NCBI GenBank assembly: GCA_017848115.1
Contig: JAGAKZ010000041.1
Span: 1-63,316 of the forward strand
DNA length: 63,316 nucleotides
Direction: 5' to 3'
Origin: Oscillospiraceae bacterium
GTDB lineage: Bacteria; Bacillota; Clostridia; Oscillospirales; Ruminococcaceae
Shown here: one piece after another, positions 27,364-35,334 of the stretch
How positions within the stretch are numbered: position 1 is the first letter of the stretch
Layout of the letters: every line of letters starts with the position of its first letter
Program-made: the position numbers and the translations under genes
Notes under the pieces: model-generated
Told to the model about the DNA's origin: nothing
Seen by the model: the letters and a program-made list of their open reading frames with translations, nothing else
The model's database searches: none

Positions 27364-27567
27364 CCTTAATTCGTAAAACTCATATTCGATAAGCCTTTCA
27401 TAAATAACAAAATAAAATATCACAACCACTATTTCGAAATGGAAGTTTAGTAAAAATATCTAAAAATTTTCAAAAAAATTTATGTTTTATATATAGATAT
27501 TTCAGCCATTGTATGGTATTATTAATATATGAAATCTTTTATAATTATATTTAAAGGGGTAATTGGT

Positions 27568-29313
27568 ATGAATAACAAAAAAATTTTAAGTGTACTCGCA
27601 GCAATATCTATTCTGACAATGAGTGGAGTATATCCGGTATATGCACTCGAAGAAACACCGGTTACAAGTATTGAATACATCACTTCCGATACGTTCAGAG
27701 ATAATTGGGAAGTTGAAACTGTAAAGCTTCCGGACGGAATAAAGAGCATCGGAAAAGAGATGTTTTACAATTGCGAAAATTTAAACACAATAGAAATACC
27801 GGCAAGTGTTGAAAATATTGACGCTTCTGCTTTTATGTACTGCTGTGCTCTTACAAATATAAATGTTGACCCTGAAAACAAGAATTACAAATCTGTTGAC
27901 GGTGTGCTTTTCAGCAGTGACATGAAAGAACTTGTAAGATATCCAACAGGCAGAACTGATATGGATTATGTTGTTCCTGACAGTGTAGAAAAAATATCAG
28001 AAAATGCTTTCCATTCTTCACAGCTTTTATCGTTAAAACTTTGTGACAGCGTAAAAGAATTAGATAAAGGTGCTTTTGCAAATTCGTTATCGCTGATATC
28101 AGTATCGTTTGGAAAAAATATTGAATCTATAGGTTCTGATATTTTTAAGCGTTGCATACAACTTTCTGATGTATATTATACAGGAACCAAAGAACAGTGG
28201 AATGATATAGATAATGTAACAGAAACTTTCAGTAATTCTGATCTTCAGCTTCATTATGGTACAGAGCTGACAGATGGTGTATCGGTGTCCGGTAAGTACG
28301 GAGAACTGATTACCTGGACACTTGAAAAAAATGTACTTAAGATAGAAGGTACCGGCGAAATTAAGTATAATAATCCATGGTATTATTATGATAGTTATGT
28401 CAGAAAAGTCGTTATATCTGATGGTATTACAGCAATAGGCAGTTCTGCATTTGGCGGATTTAAGGATATGGTGTCTATAGATATTCCTGAAAGCGTTACT
28501 TCTATAAGCTTTGATGCATTTTCAGGTTGTACATCTCTTAAGTCAGTATATATACCTTCCGGAGTAAAACAGCTTGATTATGGTGTATTTGTGGAATGTG
28601 CATCACTTGAAACTATTGATGTATCAGAAGAAAATGAAAGTTATAAAAGTATTGACGGTGTATGGTTCACAAAAGACGGAAAAGAACTGTTGCACTATCC
28701 TGAGGGAAAAACGGACAGTACATATACTGTTCCTGAAAATGTTGAAGCAATAAAAGGGCATGCATTTATGAGTGCAAAGTGTTCATCGATAATTATTCCT
28801 GATAGTGTTACATACATAAGCGATTATGCTTTTGCCGGTAGTAAAATAACGGATATCACTATTCCGGAAGGTATAACAGAAATCTATAACGGAACATTTC
28901 TTGACTGTCCTAAACTCGAAAGCGTTAAGTTAAACGGAGAAATTAAATCTGTAGGACAACTCGCTTTTGCTTATTGCAGTTCATTAAAATCAGTAGAATT
29001 CATCAATACTCCGGAAAACATCGAGGAAAATGCTTTCTGGAACAGTGACTTATTTAAACCGGTTACCGTTCCCGGAAATGTTAAAACTGTTGATCTGATC
29101 GAAGAAACAGTTTACGGTGACCTTAACTCCGACATGACAACCGATCTTACAGATCTTTCACTTCTTTCACTTCATCTTTTAGACGATGCATCTTTAGATG
29201 AAAGTGCGTTGAAAGCTGCTGATGTTAATGGCGACGGAGATGTAAACCTCGCAGACCTTGCACATTTTAAACAGTATATTTCAAAAGATGATGTGACTCT
29301 TGGTTTGCAGTAA
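27568..29313 (+). CDS. Secreted BspA-type leucine-rich-repeat protein with C-terminal dockerin
   Basis: A 581-residue secreted protein. A signal peptide (about 1-25, ending VYAL) is followed by BspA-type LRR_5 repeats of about 23 residues (NLNTIEIPASVENIDASAFMYC; SLKSVYIPSGVKQLDYGVF and others), interrupted by a segment near 230-270 (SGKYGELITWTLEKNVLKIEGTGEI). Residues from about 515 form a type I dockerin: GDLNSDMTTDLTDLSLLSLHLL and ADVNGDGDVNLADLAHFKQYIS, the second with an ideal calcium loop. Dockerins dock to cohesins on a cellulosome scaffoldin; the LRR part probably binds host or plant polymers or proteins. ATG 27568 follows AAAGGGG. Confidence 0.92.
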   Translation: MNNKKILSVLAAISILTMSGVYPVYALEETPVTSIEYITSDTFRDNWEVETVKLPDGIKSIGKEMFYNCENLNTIEIPASVENIDASAFMYCCALTNINVDPENKNYKSVDGVLFSSDMKELVRYPTGRTDMDYVVPDSVEKISENAFHSSQLLSLKLCDSVKELDKGAFANSLSLISVSFGKNIESIGSDIFKRCIQLSDVYYTGTKEQWNDIDNVTETFSNSDLQLHYGTELTDGVSVSGKYGELITWTLEKNVLKIEGTGEIKYNNPWYYYDSYVRKVVISDGITAIGSSAFGGFKDMVSIDIPESVTSISFDAFSGCTSLKSVYIPSGVKQLDYGVFVECASLETIDVSEENESYKSIDGVWFTKDGKELLHYPEGKTDSTYTVPENVEAIKGHAFMSAKCSSIIIPDSVTYISDYAFAGSKITDITIPEGITEIYNGTFLDCPKLESVKLNGEIKSVGQLAFAYCSSLKSVEFINTPENIEENAFWNSDLFKPVTVPGNVKTVDLIEETVYGDLNSDMTTDLTDLSLLSLHLLDDASLDESALKAADVNGDGDVNLADLAHFKQYISKDDVTLGLQ

Positions 29314-29503: not shown

Positions 29504-29722
29504 TATAAATTAAGCATCTCCCCTGCCTGTACCGAAATTTATTTAAAGCATCACATTTTATAGTTGATTTAATACAAAAACATATGTAGAAATATGTATA
29601 ATCATACAAATATTTTTTTCCTTGAAAGAAATCGCCCTTTTTTCGACATATATATTATAGGGGAAGTGTATCATAACGACTCTGTAAATTCTGAAAATTA
29701 TTTTAAAAGGTGGGGTGATAGA

Positions 29723-30249
29723 TTGGACGACTTTAAAAATACAGACACCGAATTTCTCATACACAGTGTTGCGGCAAAATACTATAACGATGTTTACAGA
29801 CTTTGCAGAGCGCATCTAAAAAACAAAATGGACGCAGAGGATTGCACACAGGAAGTGTTTGCAGTATTTTGTCAGAAATCAGAAAAGCTCACCATTGGAG
29901 ACGAAATTAAAAAATGGCTTTATGCTGTCGCAAAGAATAAAATAAAAGAATACAGAAGAAAAAATCAGGACTATAACAGAAGCGATATTGATATAGAAAA
30001 TCTCATTGATGATGAAAAACTCTCATATCGTGAAATATTTTTTGATGATAAAGACCAGTCAATAACCGATTTACTCGAACAGTTTACATTTTTAAATAAA
30101 ATCGAAAAAGAGATACTAGTGGATTTTTATCAGAATCAGTTAGATCCGGATATCATTGCAAAAAACATAATATGACATTGAATGCTTTTTATTCAAGAAT
30201 GACCAGAATAAAGGCAAAATTATTAAAAAGCCTTGGTGAAAACAGCTAA
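29723..30249 (+). CDS. ECF-type sigma factor read through a -1 frameshift (or broken by one)
   Basis: The TTG at 29723, behind AAGGTGGGGTG, begins a protein with sigma region 2 (YYNDVYRLCRAHLKN, DAEDCTQEVFAVF, KKWLYAVAKNKIKEYRRK). Zero-frame reading stops at TGA 30173-30175 inside region 4 after 150 residues. In the -1 frame translation continues to TAA 30247-30249 with the second half of the region 4 helix-turn-helix (NMTLNAFYSRMTRIKAKLL). The heptamer A_AAA_AAC (30160-30166) lies exactly in phase two codons before the stop, so -1 slippage gives a 175-residue sigma with intact region 4. Alternatives are a one-base loss from an A7 run or a sequencing error. Followed by a putative anti-sigma gene. 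Confidence 0.75.
30160..30166 (+). other. In-phase slippery heptamer A_AAA_AAC
   Basis: Zero-frame codons are GCA AAA AAC, so both tRNAs can re-pair after a -1 slip. The zero-frame TGA follows at 30173. I see no obvious stimulatory pseudoknot downstream and only a weak GGA upstream. Confidence 0.5.
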
Positions 30250-30354: not shown

Positions 30355-31191
30355 ATGAGCAAAAAAGTGGAGAGGGACTTCGTAAAGGATTTTTTGCTTA
30401 GTACAGAGATCGAAGAAAAAGCAATAGAAACAAGCATGAAAGAACTCAACAGAAAAATAAAAAAAGGTGATGTTGACGGAGTCGATGAAATTGTTGACTT
30501 TCTGCTTGAAATGCAAGGATATGACGAGTCAGAAGAAATTGATATTCAAAAAAGTATTGATAAGCTAATGAGTGATATAAATGACGGACTCTATAACGAT
30601 TCAGTGAACAAAAGGAAAAAGTTTAATATATCAAAGAAAGCTGTTGTTGCTGTCGCTTCTGTTATAGTGCTGTTTACTACAAACACTATTGTAAGAGCGA
30701 CAACCAACGAAAGCATTCTGACACTTGCAGTAAATATTGCAGAAAACAGTTTCTCAATCGACAATAACAAAGTAATCAAACTCCCTGTTTCCGAAAACGA
30801 CCCATATGGAATAAGGGCGGAATGTCAAAAATACAAATACACTCCCGATGTTCCATTTTATTTACCGGAAGGTTTTGAGTTGATGGAGATGCATCAGTCA
30901 ACTCCTTCAAATTATGACTTTGATTCTCGTTTTAACGCTTTTAAGTTTAAAAAAGGAACAAGCTGTATTTTATTTAATTATAATTATGACCCAAATATGT
31001 CGGATAGTATGCCATTAAGATATGATGAATCTGAATGTACAGTAATCACAATAAATGGTGCACAAGCAGCTTTAGTTAAAAGAGAAAACGGGTATACGGT
31101 TGATTATTATAAAAATAAAATAACCTATTTTATAGATTTTCAATATGTTGATTTTGATGAGATCGATAAGATCATTAACAGTATAGGATAA
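30355..31191 (+). CDS. DUF4367 membrane protein, putative anti-sigma factor
   Basis: A 278-residue protein. The N-terminal 85 residues are charged, helical and cytoplasmic; one membrane helix (about 97-113, AVVAVASVIVLFTTNTI) leads to an extracellular DUF4367-type domain (about 140-278) with the hallmark VPFYLPEGFEL and a C-terminal YFIDFQYVDFDEIDKIINSI. Membrane proteins with this domain commonly follow ECF sigma genes, where the cytoplasmic part holds sigma and the outer part senses. No zinc-binding anti-sigma motif is visible, so the mode of sigma binding is open. GGAGG before ATG. The next gene is a fused paralogue. Confidence 0.8.
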   Translation: MSKKVERDFVKDFLLSTEIEEKAIETSMKELNRKIKKGDVDGVDEIVDFLLEMQGYDESEEIDIQKSIDKLMSDINDGLYNDSVNKRKKFNISKKAVVAVASVIVLFTTNTIVRATTNESILTLAVNIAENSFSIDNNKVIKLPVSENDPYGIRAECQKYKYTPDVPFYLPEGFELMEMHQSTPSNYDFDSRFNAFKFKKGTSCILFNYNYDPNMSDSMPLRYDESECTVITINGAQAALVKRENGYTVDYYKNKITYFIDFQYVDFDEIDKIINSIG

Positions 31192-31201
31192 AGGTGATAT
31201 T

Positions 31202-32128
31202 TTGAAAAACACAGATAATAACGACAGCTTGTTTCTGATGCGGATTGTTGCCGAAAAATACTATACTGATATATACCGCTTGTGCCATGCATATCTGAAA
31301 AATAAAAATGATGCAAGAAAATGCACCAAAGAAGTATTTATTTTAGTGCAAAAAAATTCGCATAAGATTTTTATAAAAAGAGGTTTGAAAAAAAACATCT
31401 ATAAAATTGCTCAGAAAACAATCAAAGAATTTCCAAAAACAAAAAAATTATCAGAGTCTTGTACTCAGACAGATGATAGTGACAAAGCTGATACGGATAA
31501 AACATTTGAAAAAATGATAGATAAAATAAAAGTGGAAAACAAAAAGAAAAAGTTTGCTATATTAAAAAAAGTCGCCACTATTGTGTTATCGGTTATTGCA
31601 GTGTTATTGGCTATAGATAGTATCCTAAGAGATATTACCAAAAACGAATCAAATATCATGACACTTGCAATTGAAATAGCGGAAGAATATTTTCCGGTTA
31701 ATTTTAAAAAAACTATCGAAATTCCGGTTTCAGAAGATGACCCATATGGAATAAAGACTCAATGCCAACAAAATGGCTATACTCCTGATATTCCGTTTTA
31801 CTTGCCAAAAGGGTTTGAATTAAAAAATATAGATAACAAAAAAATTGATTCAAATTGTTTTTCCAACTCTTTTACATTTGAAAAAAATAAAAGTTATATA
31901 TTCTTTTCTTATCATTATTATATCGATGAAAATGATATGGGTTCTATTTCTATTCCATGTAATGAATTTAATCTAAGCGAAACAACAGTGAATGGAACAA
32001 AAGCAATTTTAAGCCAAGAAGATAATCAATATGTTGTTAATTATACAAAAGACAATATTATCTATGTTATTTTTATACAAGATGTTGATTATGATGAGTG
32101 TGATAATATAATTGAAAGTATTAAGTAG
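31202..32128 (+). CDS. Fusion of sigma region 2, membrane helix and DUF4367 domain
   Basis: A 308-residue protein from TTG 31202 (AAAGGTGAT site). Residues 10-80 are homologous to region 2 of the sigma factor at 29723 (RIVAEKYYTDIYRLCHAYLKN, DARKCTKEVFILVQ, KKNIYKIAQKTIKEF). Residues 105-308 are homologous to the DUF4367 protein just upstream: an acidic/basic juxtamembrane stretch, a membrane helix (about 122-140), then the shared motifs PVSEDDPYGIK, TPDIPFYLPKGFEL and the DVDYDECDNIIESI end. Region 4 is missing. It thus looks like a duplicated sigma/anti-sigma pair fused into one chain by deletion. The region 2 copy has lost acidic residues (DARKC for DAEDC), so it may be a decoy rather than an active sigma. 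Confidence 0.75.
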   Translation: MKNTDNNDSLFLMRIVAEKYYTDIYRLCHAYLKNKNDARKCTKEVFILVQKNSHKIFIKRGLKKNIYKIAQKTIKEFPKTKKLSESCTQTDDSDKADTDKTFEKMIDKIKVENKKKKFAILKKVATIVLSVIAVLLAIDSILRDITKNESNIMTLAIEIAEEYFPVNFKKTIEIPVSEDDPYGIKTQCQQNGYTPDIPFYLPKGFELKNIDNKKIDSNCFSNSFTFEKNKSYIFFSYHYYIDENDMGSISIPCNEFNLSETTVNGTKAILSQEDNQYVVNYTKDNIIYVIFIQDVDYDECDNIIESIK

Positions 32129-32144
32129 AAAAGGAATGGTTATT

Positions 32145-32618
32145 ATGAAAAAAATGAATAGAATTATTTCCGTTATTATAACACTAATATTTCTCAATCG
32201 AAATTCTGTTTCCAGCATGGTAAACGCATATGACAATGAAGTAACAACCACTGAAAATGCAACTACTATAGTTGATGTAAAGACAACAGGTTTGATAAAT
32301 TTACATAGTATTTCTGTAAAATGTTTAAATGGAAAATTAGCAATTAACGCAGAAACAACTTCTACAGAAAATATGAAACAAATCGGATTAAAAAATATTG
32401 TAATTCAACGTTCGTCAAACGGTTCTGATTGGACTGATTATATAATATTAAACGATATGTTGATTGAAGGTAATGAACATATACTTTCCGATTATTCTGT
32501 AAATGTTTTTACTGGATATTACAGAGTAAAATGTGATCATTATGCTAAAGAAAAAGGAATATGGTTTCCTGATGATGAAACTATAAGTAACACTTCAAAT
32601 AGTGTTTACATAAGTTAA
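32145..32618 (+). CDS. Small secreted protein, possibly DUF6147
   Basis: A 157-residue protein with an N-terminal signal sequence (MKKMNRIISVIITLIFLNR, cleavage near VNAYD), a short Thr-rich stretch (EVTTTENATTIV), then a beta-rich domain with GLINLHSISVKC, IVIQRSSNGSDWTDY and FTGYYRVKCDHYA. The two Cys may pair. It resembles small exported proteins found beside sigma/DUF4367 genes in Ruminococcus-type genomes; the DUF6147 label is from memory and uncertain. ATG 32145 (AAGGAATGG site) starts 17 bases after the fusion gene, so it is probably co-transcribed. Confidence 0.65.
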   Translation: MKKMNRIISVIITLIFLNRNSVSSMVNAYDNEVTTTENATTIVDVKTTGLINLHSISVKCLNGKLAINAETTSTENMKQIGLKNIVIQRSSNGSDWTDYIILNDMLIEGNEHILSDYSVNVFTGYYRVKCDHYAKEKGIWFPDDETISNTSNSVYIS

Positions 32619-32770
32619 ACTTTATTGCTTTTGCTTAATATAGAGAGGGTGATTAAATTGATTGTTTAAAACATAAACTTAAAAGCAAGAATAAACATTG
32701 TATCAATGTATTCTTATGCTGAACTATTGATTCAAACTATAATTAACAAAGAAAATATGGGGGTATATTT

Positions 32771-34447
32771 ATGAAGTTTGGAGTTAAATTTTTATCTTTT
32801 TTATCTTCTGCATTAATTGCTACTACATCTTTAAATGTTGACAATTTAATGGCATTAGACGAAACTAAAAACACTTTTTCATATGCTACAGGTGGAAAAT
32901 ATTCTTTAATGGTAGATGAAAATTCTTTATCAAAAGAAAACGTAGAGAGATCTTATAACTATCCATCAAGTTATGATATCACTACCAATTCAAGTACATC
33001 AAGTTATTTTCCCGAAATCGGAAATCAAGGCAGTGTACCATCATGTACAGCATGGGCAACAACGTATTATCAATATACTTATGAAGTTAATAAATTGAGA
33101 AATACGCCTGCTACATCTGAAAATATATATTCGCCATCTTGGACATATAATTATATTAATGGCGGAACTGCTAATAACACTTATCTGGAACACGCGTACA
33201 ATATTTTAGAAAATCAAGGAGCAATGAAACTTGTAGACTATCCACACTCTTCTAATATTAGCACCTACAATTACAATTGGTGCACTGATTCTACAAAACT
33301 CATTGATGCACTTGAATACAGAGGAAAATCTTCTTATACTATTAATGATATCCAAGAAGCTAAATACAGAATATCCCAAGGCAAACCTGCAGTTGTTTGG
33401 ACTAACACTTCTACATGGACAATCGTTACAAACAGTAATAATGAGGACGTTATTGTAAGAGGTGGAACAGCAAATGATAGCGGTCATTTCATGACAATTG
33501 TTGGATATGATGACAATTTCACAGTTACAGTTAATGGCGTTACATTGACCGGTGCCTTTAAACTTGCTAATTCATGGGGTGATAATTGGGGTAATGATGG
33601 ATATATATGGGTATCTTATGATGCATTAAATCTTTACAGTTCTTATGGAACAACATGGCAAAATGATTTTGACGATTATACAAGAGGACGTATTTTCGGT
33701 GGAAATAGTTTCAACCAGTTTTCTTTTTTAGACGTTTATCATTGCGATGTTTACTATGCCGGAGTAGCTGATTTGTATTCAAATGATATGTGGGGAGTAA
33801 ATATATTAACAAAGTACAATAACAATTCCAATTTTACTAAATTACATAATATCGATGATTTTATTCCCAAAAGCACTTCTTCTCGTTATATGATAGCTTT
33901 TGACTATTTTGATGTTTATGGTTCTGAATCCTTATCTCTCTCTAATCAATTTAGAACGATTTTTAATGGTGATGGTTCACAGTCAACATATAATATCAAA
34001 GTAAATATCTTTGATAACTTACACAAAATTATTACATCATCAAGTGGCGGAAGAATACCAAGCAGTGGACAGTATACTTTTAACAATAACGTTTATTTAG
34101 CAAAAGGACGCGTTTCTTCCTATGACAATTCACAAATAACAGTTTCAGACGTTGATCTTGTAAGATACTATTTACTAGGAGATATTCAATTTTCAAATCT
34201 ACAATTGTATTTAGCTGATTACAATAGTGATGGTGTTGTTAGTTTGCTCGATGTAGTTGAAATGCATGAATATGTATCTTCATTAAATCGTTCCAAAAAT
34301 TCTCCATATTCATTAACAGATTATGAAAGTGAATGGGGTTGCTCTTTAGCTGATATTATTGAAAATGATTTTGGTATATCAATAGAAGATTTTATATCTG
34401 ATAACTATACACATTTGTCTTCATTAGGCATCGCCCTAAACTATTAA
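32771..34447 (+). CDS. Secreted papain-like (C1 family) cysteine peptidase with internal dockerin
   Basis: A 558-residue secreted peptidase. Signal peptide about 1-29; a short pro-like segment; catalytic domain about 65-300 with GNQGSVPSCTAWATTYY (nucleophile C92, preceded by the oxyanion-hole Q), SGHFMTIVGYDD (H239) and LANSWGDNWGNDGYIWVSY (N267). Residues 450-505 form a divergent dockerin: YDNSQITVSDVDLVRYYLLG and ADYNSDGVVSLLDVVEMHEY. Unlike the other two dockerins it is followed by about 50 extra residues. The region is visibly A/T-richer than the housekeeping genes. The 152-base gap before it (32619-32770) shows no clear promoter. It could degrade plant or competitor proteins on the cellulosome. 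Confidence 0.9.
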   Translation: MKFGVKFLSFLSSALIATTSLNVDNLMALDETKNTFSYATGGKYSLMVDENSLSKENVERSYNYPSSYDITTNSSTSSYFPEIGNQGSVPSCTAWATTYYQYTYEVNKLRNTPATSENIYSPSWTYNYINGGTANNTYLEHAYNILENQGAMKLVDYPHSSNISTYNYNWCTDSTKLIDALEYRGKSSYTINDIQEAKYRISQGKPAVVWTNTSTWTIVTNSNNEDVIVRGGTANDSGHFMTIVGYDDNFTVTVNGVTLTGAFKLANSWGDNWGNDGYIWVSYDALNLYSSYGTTWQNDFDDYTRGRIFGGNSFNQFSFLDVYHCDVYYAGVADLYSNDMWGVNILTKYNNNSNFTKLHNIDDFIPKSTSSRYMIAFDYFDVYGSESLSLSNQFRTIFNGDGSQSTYNIKVNIFDNLHKIITSSSGGRIPSSGQYTFNNNVYLAKGRVSSYDNSQITVSDVDLVRYYLLGDIQFSNLQLYLADYNSDGVVSLLDVVEMHEYVSSLNRSKNSPYSLTDYESEWGCSLADIIENDFGISIEDFISDNYTHLSSLGIALNY

Positions 34448-34460
34448 GGAGTTGATTTTT

Positions 34461-35315
34461 ATGAAAAAAAACAGGTGTATCACCGCATTACTGTCTCTTT
34501 GCTTGGCATTTTCCTCTTTTTCATCTTCTTTGTTGTACGCTGAATCAACTAATAACTTACCATCTGTAGAAAGTTCAGAAAACTACAACTATATTTCGTT
34601 TGAAGAATTTTCAAAGTTAAGTGAAGAAGAAATAACCGAGAAATATTCTTCGTCAGAAAAATACAAGCAAGCATGCGGTTTTGCAACATCTTTCATCGAT
34701 GTAGCGAAGTCAAACGAAGTAACTATCAATTCTTTCTTTATCTACTTTGATCTTTCATATTTTGGCTCTGCTAAAAATGATTATGTAAATTTCGAAAGAA
34801 TAGACGGCATTCTTTCTTCAGCCGGAGAAAAAATTTTTGATATTTCTGATTACAATGAAAAAGCAATATGCGAACTTCTTGATATTCCCGATGAATATTT
34901 AATTAGTATGGATCATAGTAGCTTTTACATGTCTCTAGATTTTAATGGTGAAAACGTCCTTGTTGCACCAATAAAGATAACACTTGAATTTACAAATGAA
35001 ACAGAGAAAGATTTAGAAAAATGGTTGACCTACATGTATTTAAATCCGTATATCTCATATTGTAGCCCAAGCTATAAAGGTGGTGGAGTTAATTCGACAG
35101 CTCCTTTGAGCATTGGTGACATAAATGAAGATTATAACGTTGACCTCTCCGATCTCACATCTCTCTCACTAGGTCTTATCGGTGACATGAAGTTTACTGA
35201 TAAACAGATATTACTTGCTGATATAAACTCCGACAGTGCAATAAACATTGCAGATTTAGCACTTTTTAAGCAGTATATCATGGGTGAAGATATAGAACTT
35301 GGCTTTTTGAAATAA
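34461..35315 (+). CDS. Secreted dockerin protein of unknown function next to the peptidase
   Basis: A 284-residue protein with signal peptide (about 1-27, LLYAES), an unrecognised acidic domain (about 40-205, strands such as INSFFIYFDLSYFG and VLVAPIKITLEFTN) and a C-terminal dockerin (about 218-280: GDINEDYNVDLSDLTSLSLGLIG and ADINSDSAINIADLALFKQYI). ATG 34461, AAGGAG site, 13 bases after the peptidase stop, so both are co-translated. The tight pairing with a C1 peptidase suggests a partner such as an inhibitor or chaperone; this is inference. Confidence 0.85.
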   Translation: MKKNRCITALLSLCLAFSSFSSSLLYAESTNNLPSVESSENYNYISFEEFSKLSEEEITEKYSSSEKYKQACGFATSFIDVAKSNEVTINSFFIYFDLSYFGSAKNDYVNFERIDGILSSAGEKIFDISDYNEKAICELLDIPDEYLISMDHSSFYMSLDFNGENVLVAPIKITLEFTNETEKDLEKWLTYMYLNPYISYCSPSYKGGGVNSTAPLSIGDINEDYNVDLSDLTSLSLGLIGDMKFTDKQILLADINSDSAINIADLALFKQYIMGEDIELGFLK

Positions 35316-35334
35316 TTTCTTGATGCAATAATAA

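Follow-up and report, generated by a model that had tools for sequence, protein, structure and literature searches.

A single open reading frame joining a sigma region 2-like domain to a membrane-anchored DUF4367 sensor in an Oscillospiraceae genome

Extracytoplasmic function (ECF) sigma factors with a fused membrane anti-sigma extension are described for IutY/ECF243, SCO4117/ECF52, ECF53 and ECF48, which act, or are expected to act, as sigma factors after processing (available part of PMC8999054, section 3.5.3), and PhyR of Alphaproteobacteria, a sigma mimic and anti-anti-sigma factor, combines sigma2- and sigma4-like subdomains with a receiver domain in a signalling protein that is not used as a sigma factor (available part of PMC4598750). 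Here we describe an open reading frame (ORF) of 308 amino acids (aa), hereafter the fusion, at positions 31202 to 32128 of a 63,316-nucleotide (nt) stretch of DNA from an Oscillospiraceae gut bacterium, hereafter the window (GenBank assembly GCA_017848115.1, contig JAGAKZ010000041.1). The fusion is a real single frame made up of sigma region 2 and a DUF4367 receptor. Like the IutY-type proteins it holds sigma and membrane anti-sigma parts in one chain; it differs from them in lacking region 4 and the core-binding motif and in having DUF4367 as its outer part, and the complete sigma factor (sigma2 plus sigma4) that precedes the membrane part in IutY, ECF52 and ECF53 is not found in it. The likeness to PhyR is one in principle, a sigma-like domain held in a signalling protein, whereas the build differs (sigma2 only, a membrane helix and DUF4367) and anti-sigma binding by the fusion is putative. 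DUF4367 anti-sigma-like receptors encoded beside ECF sigma genes share the membrane helix, the sensor and the operon position with the fusion, but keep a conserved N-terminal cytoplasmic part that in the fusion is replaced by the sigma2-like domain. A literature search found no paper on DUF4367, alone or together with a sigma factor, and no title or abstract start describing such a build among the matches listed, which is no proof of absence from print.

The fusion is the third gene in the order sigma1, anti-sigma1, fusion, and the features of the three genes are as follows.

29723..30175, forward strand: sigma1, ECF-type sigma gene (listed ORF 29594-30175), probable TTG start at 29723, Sigma70_r2 expectation value (E) 1.3e-12
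30355..31191, forward strand: anti-sigma-like protein 1 (anti-sigma1), 278 aa, DUF4367 E 3.3e-7
31190..31197, forward strand: Shine-Dalgarno-like sequence AAAGGTGA, overlapping the stop codon of the anti-sigma1 gene and preceding the fusion TTG
31202..32128, forward strand: fusion ORF, 308 aa, TTG start, open frame with zero internal stops
31202..31450, forward strand: sigma region 2-like domain, fusion residues 1-83, by profile, BLASTP and hhalign homology
31310..31321, forward strand: fusion residues 37-40, DARK where the core-binding motif DAED would stand, by alignment (motif role from the available part of PMC8999054)
31469..31570, forward strand: juxtamembrane segment, fusion residues 90-123, which alignment A3 matches to the final cytoplasmic helix of anti-sigmas
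31571..31627, forward strand: predicted transmembrane helix, fusion residues 124-142, Kyte-Doolittle 2.6 over 19 residues
31793..32122, forward strand: DUF4367 sensor domain of the fusion, whose model resembles the C-terminal domain of RseB/MucB

Both homologies of the fusion were recovered with its two neighbours. BLASTP aligned residues 6-149 with sigma1 (36% identity over 145 aa, E 9e-21), the region 2 homology within that alignment spanning approximately residues 8-83 (49% identity over 76), and residues 91-307 with anti-sigma1 (43% over 226 aa, E 4e-45), so that the sensor homology starts at residue 91. In Pfam, DUF4367 was matched at residues 198-307 (E 8.4e-9, 36.3 bits, above the cut-off of 22.1), as had been expected for the C-terminal half, and was the sole family above cut-off, the fusion thus being without a receiver domain. 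Sigma70_r2 stayed below its curated cut-off (12.3 bits, E 0.15, cut-off 24), and with the isolated N-terminus the unrelated malate synthase C-terminal family slightly outscored it (E 0.032, below its own cut-off). A prior reading of the letters and ORF list of this DNA (hereafter the sequence-only reading) had named the lack of a significant Sigma70_r2 match as grounds for dropping the assignment; formally that lack was found, but it is overruled by the other profile tests. A region 2 hidden Markov model (HMM) built without the fusions matched the fusion at 36.8 bits (E 1.9e-10 among 1,253 frames), hhalign of its N-terminus against five sigma factors of the genus gave a probability of 98.5 (E 3e-15), and the best of the NCBIfam sigma models reached E 1e-6 (0 over their own cut-offs); chance similarity to sigma is ruled out by these three tests. 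In a PDB sequence search with the N-terminus, SigW was the only match at E <= 1 (E 0.0048). Sigma70_r4 families gave zero Pfam matches at E <= 1 in the fusion, which bears out the claim that region 4 is lacking.

The three-part chain of sigma region 2, membrane helix and DUF4367 that the sequence-only reading had proposed is confirmed in the 308-aa open frame, its membrane helix being predicted from hydropathy. The membrane helix carries a net flanking charge of +6 on its N side and 0 on its C side, and hydropathy and flanking charge, as the only grounds, suggest a topology with the N-terminus inside and the C-terminus outside; in a structure model, a predicted helix starts at residue 93, at low predicted local distance difference test (pLDDT) values. 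Models of the DUF4367 domains of the fusion (31793-32122) and anti-sigma1 (30850-31185) resembled the C-terminal domain of RseB/MucB, with Z scores tied with some unrelated proteins. RseB and MucB are partners of the RseA and MucA anti-sigma factors. They are separate periplasmic proteins, in contrast to the sensor that is part of the fusion, and other proteins match the sensor model equally well.

An intact orthologue is present in Ruminococcus sp. SIG549, the nearest named relative found (locus L022, 5001-5918). It is a 305-aa fusion with a TTG start, 90-91% identical to that of the window and third in the same order of sigma, anti-sigma and fusion. Because this orthologue is intact and fused, an assembly artefact is ruled out, as is the concern, raised along with the original claim, that orthologues might exist as two separate genes; two-gene layouts were seen in other pairs, namely a paralogous pair on another contig of the window's genome (C8; 188-aa sigma and 267-aa anti-sigma, followed by a 155-aa protein) and the sigma/anti-sigma pairs inspected in genomes G007, G008 and G009. 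The window's genome is designated G000, and the copy in genome G010 and SIG549 L022 count as one second genome. Frames above cut-off in a PF14285 search numbered 4 in G000 and 6 in G010, the fusion being one of them in each.

The search for the same architecture elsewhere, which the sequence-only reading had called for, thus found it in one further genome, SIG549, and a genome contig search likewise gave one fusion locus besides the window. With query P0001 the fusion was found only in G000 and G010 among 61 genomes of relatives and 11 of the genus, and only in G000 among 394 genomes of the order, where G010 was not among the matches (own genome counted in each). Region 2 was carried by 2 of 102 DUF4367 frames, which are the two orthologous fusions; the 102 frames are distinct strings in a selected set drawn from among the matches listed and including 40 added stretches, chosen mostly because their open frames reached at least about 255 aa, and one DUF4367 search alone matched 151 of 396 genomes. 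In a search of 396 family genomes, mixed profile A3 modelled region 2 poorly, its matches to the fusions beginning only at profile position 67, and it therefore tests the sensor half only. Viral contigs (weak two-pattern query) and plasmids gave no match to the build, phages and metagenomes lying outside the search.

Compared with the separate pairs, the fusion has lost sigma region 4 and the N-terminal ~55 cytoplasmic residues of the anti-sigma, and keeps sigma2, the juxtamembrane helix, the membrane helix and the DUF4367 sensor. The claim that its first 80 residues correspond to region 2 of the adjacent sigma and the rest to the adjacent DUF4367 protein therefore holds for both homologies, but had overlooked the missing cytoplasmic part, which is conserved among DUF4367 proteins (E30 and G55 invariant in 19 aligned proteins) and in whose place region 2 stands. 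From this comparison, the second sigma/anti-sigma pair of a tandem operon very probably became one gene when sigma region 4, together with the initial ~55 anti-sigma residues, was lost in frame. In class I anti-sigma domains, helix 1 binds sigma4 and helix 4 binds regions 2.1/2.2 of sigma2 (available part of PMC7406223). An AlphaFold2 model of anti-sigma1, of low confidence (block pLDDT 37-64 over residues 1-140), has helices at 4-14, 17-37 and 40-54, a linker, a helix at 64-81 and a membrane helix at 94-117, and this layout of three-helix bundle, linker and putative helix 4 fits class I anti-sigma domains at low pLDDT. A fold search with the model returned rows covering the sensor only, with the N-terminal part outside, and a PDB sequence search with anti-sigma1 gave three matches (best E 0.3), 0 of 3 an anti-sigma. 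If anti-sigma1 is of class I, the deletion would have taken away one interacting pair and kept the other.

The face of region 2 that would contact core RNA polymerase is changed in the fusion. DAED reads DARK, the glutamine three residues on is lysine, and the aromatic column, tryptophan in all five sigma factors of the genus (tyrosine 0.37 and tryptophan 0.33 in a wider set), is asparagine; the four altered residues (R, K, K, N) have a frequency of 0.00 at their own columns in 105 sigma region 2 rows. The net charge of the region 2 part is +13, compared with +2 for sigma1 and +3 for the C8 sigma, and 16 of 20 mostly hydrophobic columns are still hydrophobic, compared with 18 of 20 in each of these two sigmas. 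According to published work, regions 2.1/2.2 bind the beta' clamp (PMC7406223), and contact with beta' usually depends on the acidic residues of DAED (PMC8999054). The sigma2 remnant of the fusion thus appears, from its residues, not to bind core RNA polymerase.

This bears on the two roles first proposed for the fusion, a decoy for core RNA polymerase and a sigma released by intramembrane proteolysis, which we now consider highly improbable. The clamp-binding role of regions 2.1/2.2 speaks for either role, and sigma/anti-sigma fusions released by proteolysis do exist (IutY; predicted for ECF48, ECF52 and ECF53; available part of PMC8999054, section 3.5.3); they are made unlikely by DARK for DAED, the loss of the glutamine and of the aromatic residue (lysine, and asparagine for tryptophan) and the charge of +13, and by the lack of region 4, which with the altered core-binding residues disfavours a released sigma in particular. 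In EcfP/EcfK (ECF43) DAED is likewise absent, and EcfP, which has a phosphorylatable STTA motif at that site, is inactive until phosphorylated at a threonine in the motif (available part of PMC8999054, section 3.4). A kinase could similarly supply the missing negative charge to the fusion, which has a threonine at residue 42; the same threonine is found in sigma1 and the C8 sigma, both with an acidic motif, and in the fusion a single phosphate would hardly reverse the charge of R, K and K in a protein that also lacks region 4, so that a phosphorylation-activated sigma2 is barely conceivable.

The functional reading that we tentatively favour is that of a membrane-bound sigma2 mimic, or partner switch, acting on the adjacent sigma1/anti-sigma1 pair. 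The sigma2 remnant would no longer bind core RNA polymerase; the sigma2-like domain, or the helix-4-like segment, would swap partners with the sigma1/anti-sigma1 complex under the control of the fusion's own DUF4367 sensor, and the amount of free sigma1 would be altered, sigma1 possibly serving dockerin-type genes around the operon. A third early proposal, a decoy for the anti-sigma, is possible, although helix 4 of class I anti-sigmas is reported to lie on the same 2.1/2.2 face, which is also changed (available part of PMC7406223). A rival in which the fusion is a partial anti-sigma, its juxtamembrane helix binding the sigma2 domain of sigma1 in trans and the fused pseudo-sigma2 acting as a built-in competitor that sets the threshold, is improbable: this helix corresponds in the alignment to the final cytoplasmic helix of anti-sigmas, and class I domains bind sigma2 through helix 4 (available part of PMC7406223), but helices 1-3 are missing from the fusion and class I membership of these proteins is putative.

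Several observations weigh against the partner switch. Anti-sigma binding by the fusion may be lost too, because anti-sigma contacts are reported on the changed face (available part of PMC7406223), and the helix 4 assignment comes from a low-confidence model part outside fold-search coverage. The fusion occurs in two closely related genomes only. In the region 2 tree its branch measures 1.49 changes per column versus 0 for sigma1, as under relaxed constraint (join 91/91, no branch starred), and in a branch codon model omega = 1 (the ratio of nonsynonymous to synonymous rates) is only marginally rejected for region 2 (2 delta log-likelihood (lnL) 3.8). Across the 249 nt of the region 2 part, the window and SIG549 differ by 0 substitutions, a count too low for a test of selection (intergenic stretches, 10 in 850). 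The frame of sigma1 itself is broken within region 4 in the window's genome, a frameshift missed by the sequence-only reading; region 2 is intact, and the region 4 part lies in another frame at 30133-30246. Since SIG549 has an intact 194-aa copy of sigma1, the strain of the window may have a defective circuit, or the frameshift may be an assembly error.

The fusion may instead be a relict of a duplicated sigma/anti-sigma pair collapsed by deletion, with region 2 as decaying ballast and selection on the receptor half alone or on nothing, a possibility that we hold to be nearly as likely as the sigma2 mimic. The restricted distribution and the frameshifted neighbour fit it, as do the loss of the most conserved functional residues of region 2 and a long region 2 branch alongside a DUF half that is not accelerated; in the DUF-half tree, which is flagged for long branches and does not settle how the three are ordered, branches were 0.28 plus 0.05-0.11 for the fusion, 0.75 for anti-sigma1 and 0.07 for the C8 anti-sigma. 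Guanine-plus-cytosine content at first codon positions also fits (0.29 in the region 2 part versus 0.44 in sigma1), yet the C8 sigma, with its frame intact, has 0.32. Decay is opposed by the intact frame and start in both genomes with an unchanged region 2 part between them, by the mostly retained hydrophobic pattern, and by a rate excess over sigma1 that is not significant in a three-sequence test (13 versus 6 unique changes, chi2 2.6). Omega = 1 is rejected, marginally for region 2 as given above and more clearly for the DUF half (2 delta lnL 11.5), in a model of our own in which synonymous divergence (dS) is saturated and branches include pre-fusion history.

If functional, the fusion would make a sigma mimic part of the transmembrane sensor itself, with sigma2 alone and a charge-reversed polymerase-binding motif; it would offer an example, open to testing, of how a piece of a sigma factor becomes a regulator instead of a transcription factor, and a natural dissection of two reported interfaces, sigma2/helix 4 and sigma4/helix 1. 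If a relict, it would document a collapse route of tandem sigma/anti-sigma pairs.

A possible counterpart of the sigma2 fusion was found in five DUF4367 membrane proteins with a sigma4-like N-terminus, from four genomes and three genera.

G217:C1, G153:C51, G188:C6, G228:C69, G153:C49: sigma4-like DUF4367 proteins (L180, L181, L182, L183, L201)

All five genes lie directly downstream, on the same strand, of a complete ECF sigma gene whose frame contains both region 2 and region 4. Three of the five N-termini, aligned by hhalign with 12 sigma factors, gave a probability of 94.8 (E 5e-8), and a profile of the N-termini also matched the C-terminal part of 13 frames carrying region 2; direct HMM scores to region 4 were weak (E 0.00012 to 0.96), and Pfam gave no match in the N-termini of the two proteins scanned. 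Further matches of the sigma4 profile (L189, L190, L191, L193) fell on membrane parts of DUF4367 proteins and were left uncounted, as were matches in frames with neither region 2 nor DUF4367. It is conceivable, though doubtful, that DUF4367 receptors repeatedly gained single sigma subdomains as their cytoplasmic heads, a sigma2-like one here and sigma4-like ones in three other genera, which would serve as receptor-borne mimics switching partners with the adjacent sigma.

Within the fusion gene, differences between the window and SIG549 are concentrated in one tract; a further gene follows the fusion.

31817..31984, forward strand: sensor tract strongly diverged between the window and SIG549, 48 substitutions in 168 nt
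32112..32618, forward strand: 168-aa protein with a signal-like N-terminus, as judged by eye

The three remaining segments of the fusion gene have 0, 9 and 5 substitutions, and dS for residues 206-265 is 0.998. From about 32153 to 35331 (168-aa protein, papain-dockerin protein and dockerin protein) the window has no aligned counterpart in SIG549, where a single gene, judged dockerin-like by eye, occupies this place. The diverged sensor tract and the unalignable downstream block suggest local recombination or an exchange of cassettes.

Promoter and terminator patterns occurred in the window about as often as expected by chance (36 versus 34.4 expected and 3 versus 1.9 expected). Dockerin-bearing proteins flank the operon at 27529-29313 (leucine-rich repeats), 32771-34447 (papain-like protease) and 34452-35315 (without other Pfam family), hinting at cellulosome-type targets. 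Downstream of the fusion the order is 168-aa protein, papain-family protease with dockerin and second dockerin protein, and the 168-aa protein shares 57% identity over 161 aa with the 155-aa protein encoded after the two-gene pair of C8.
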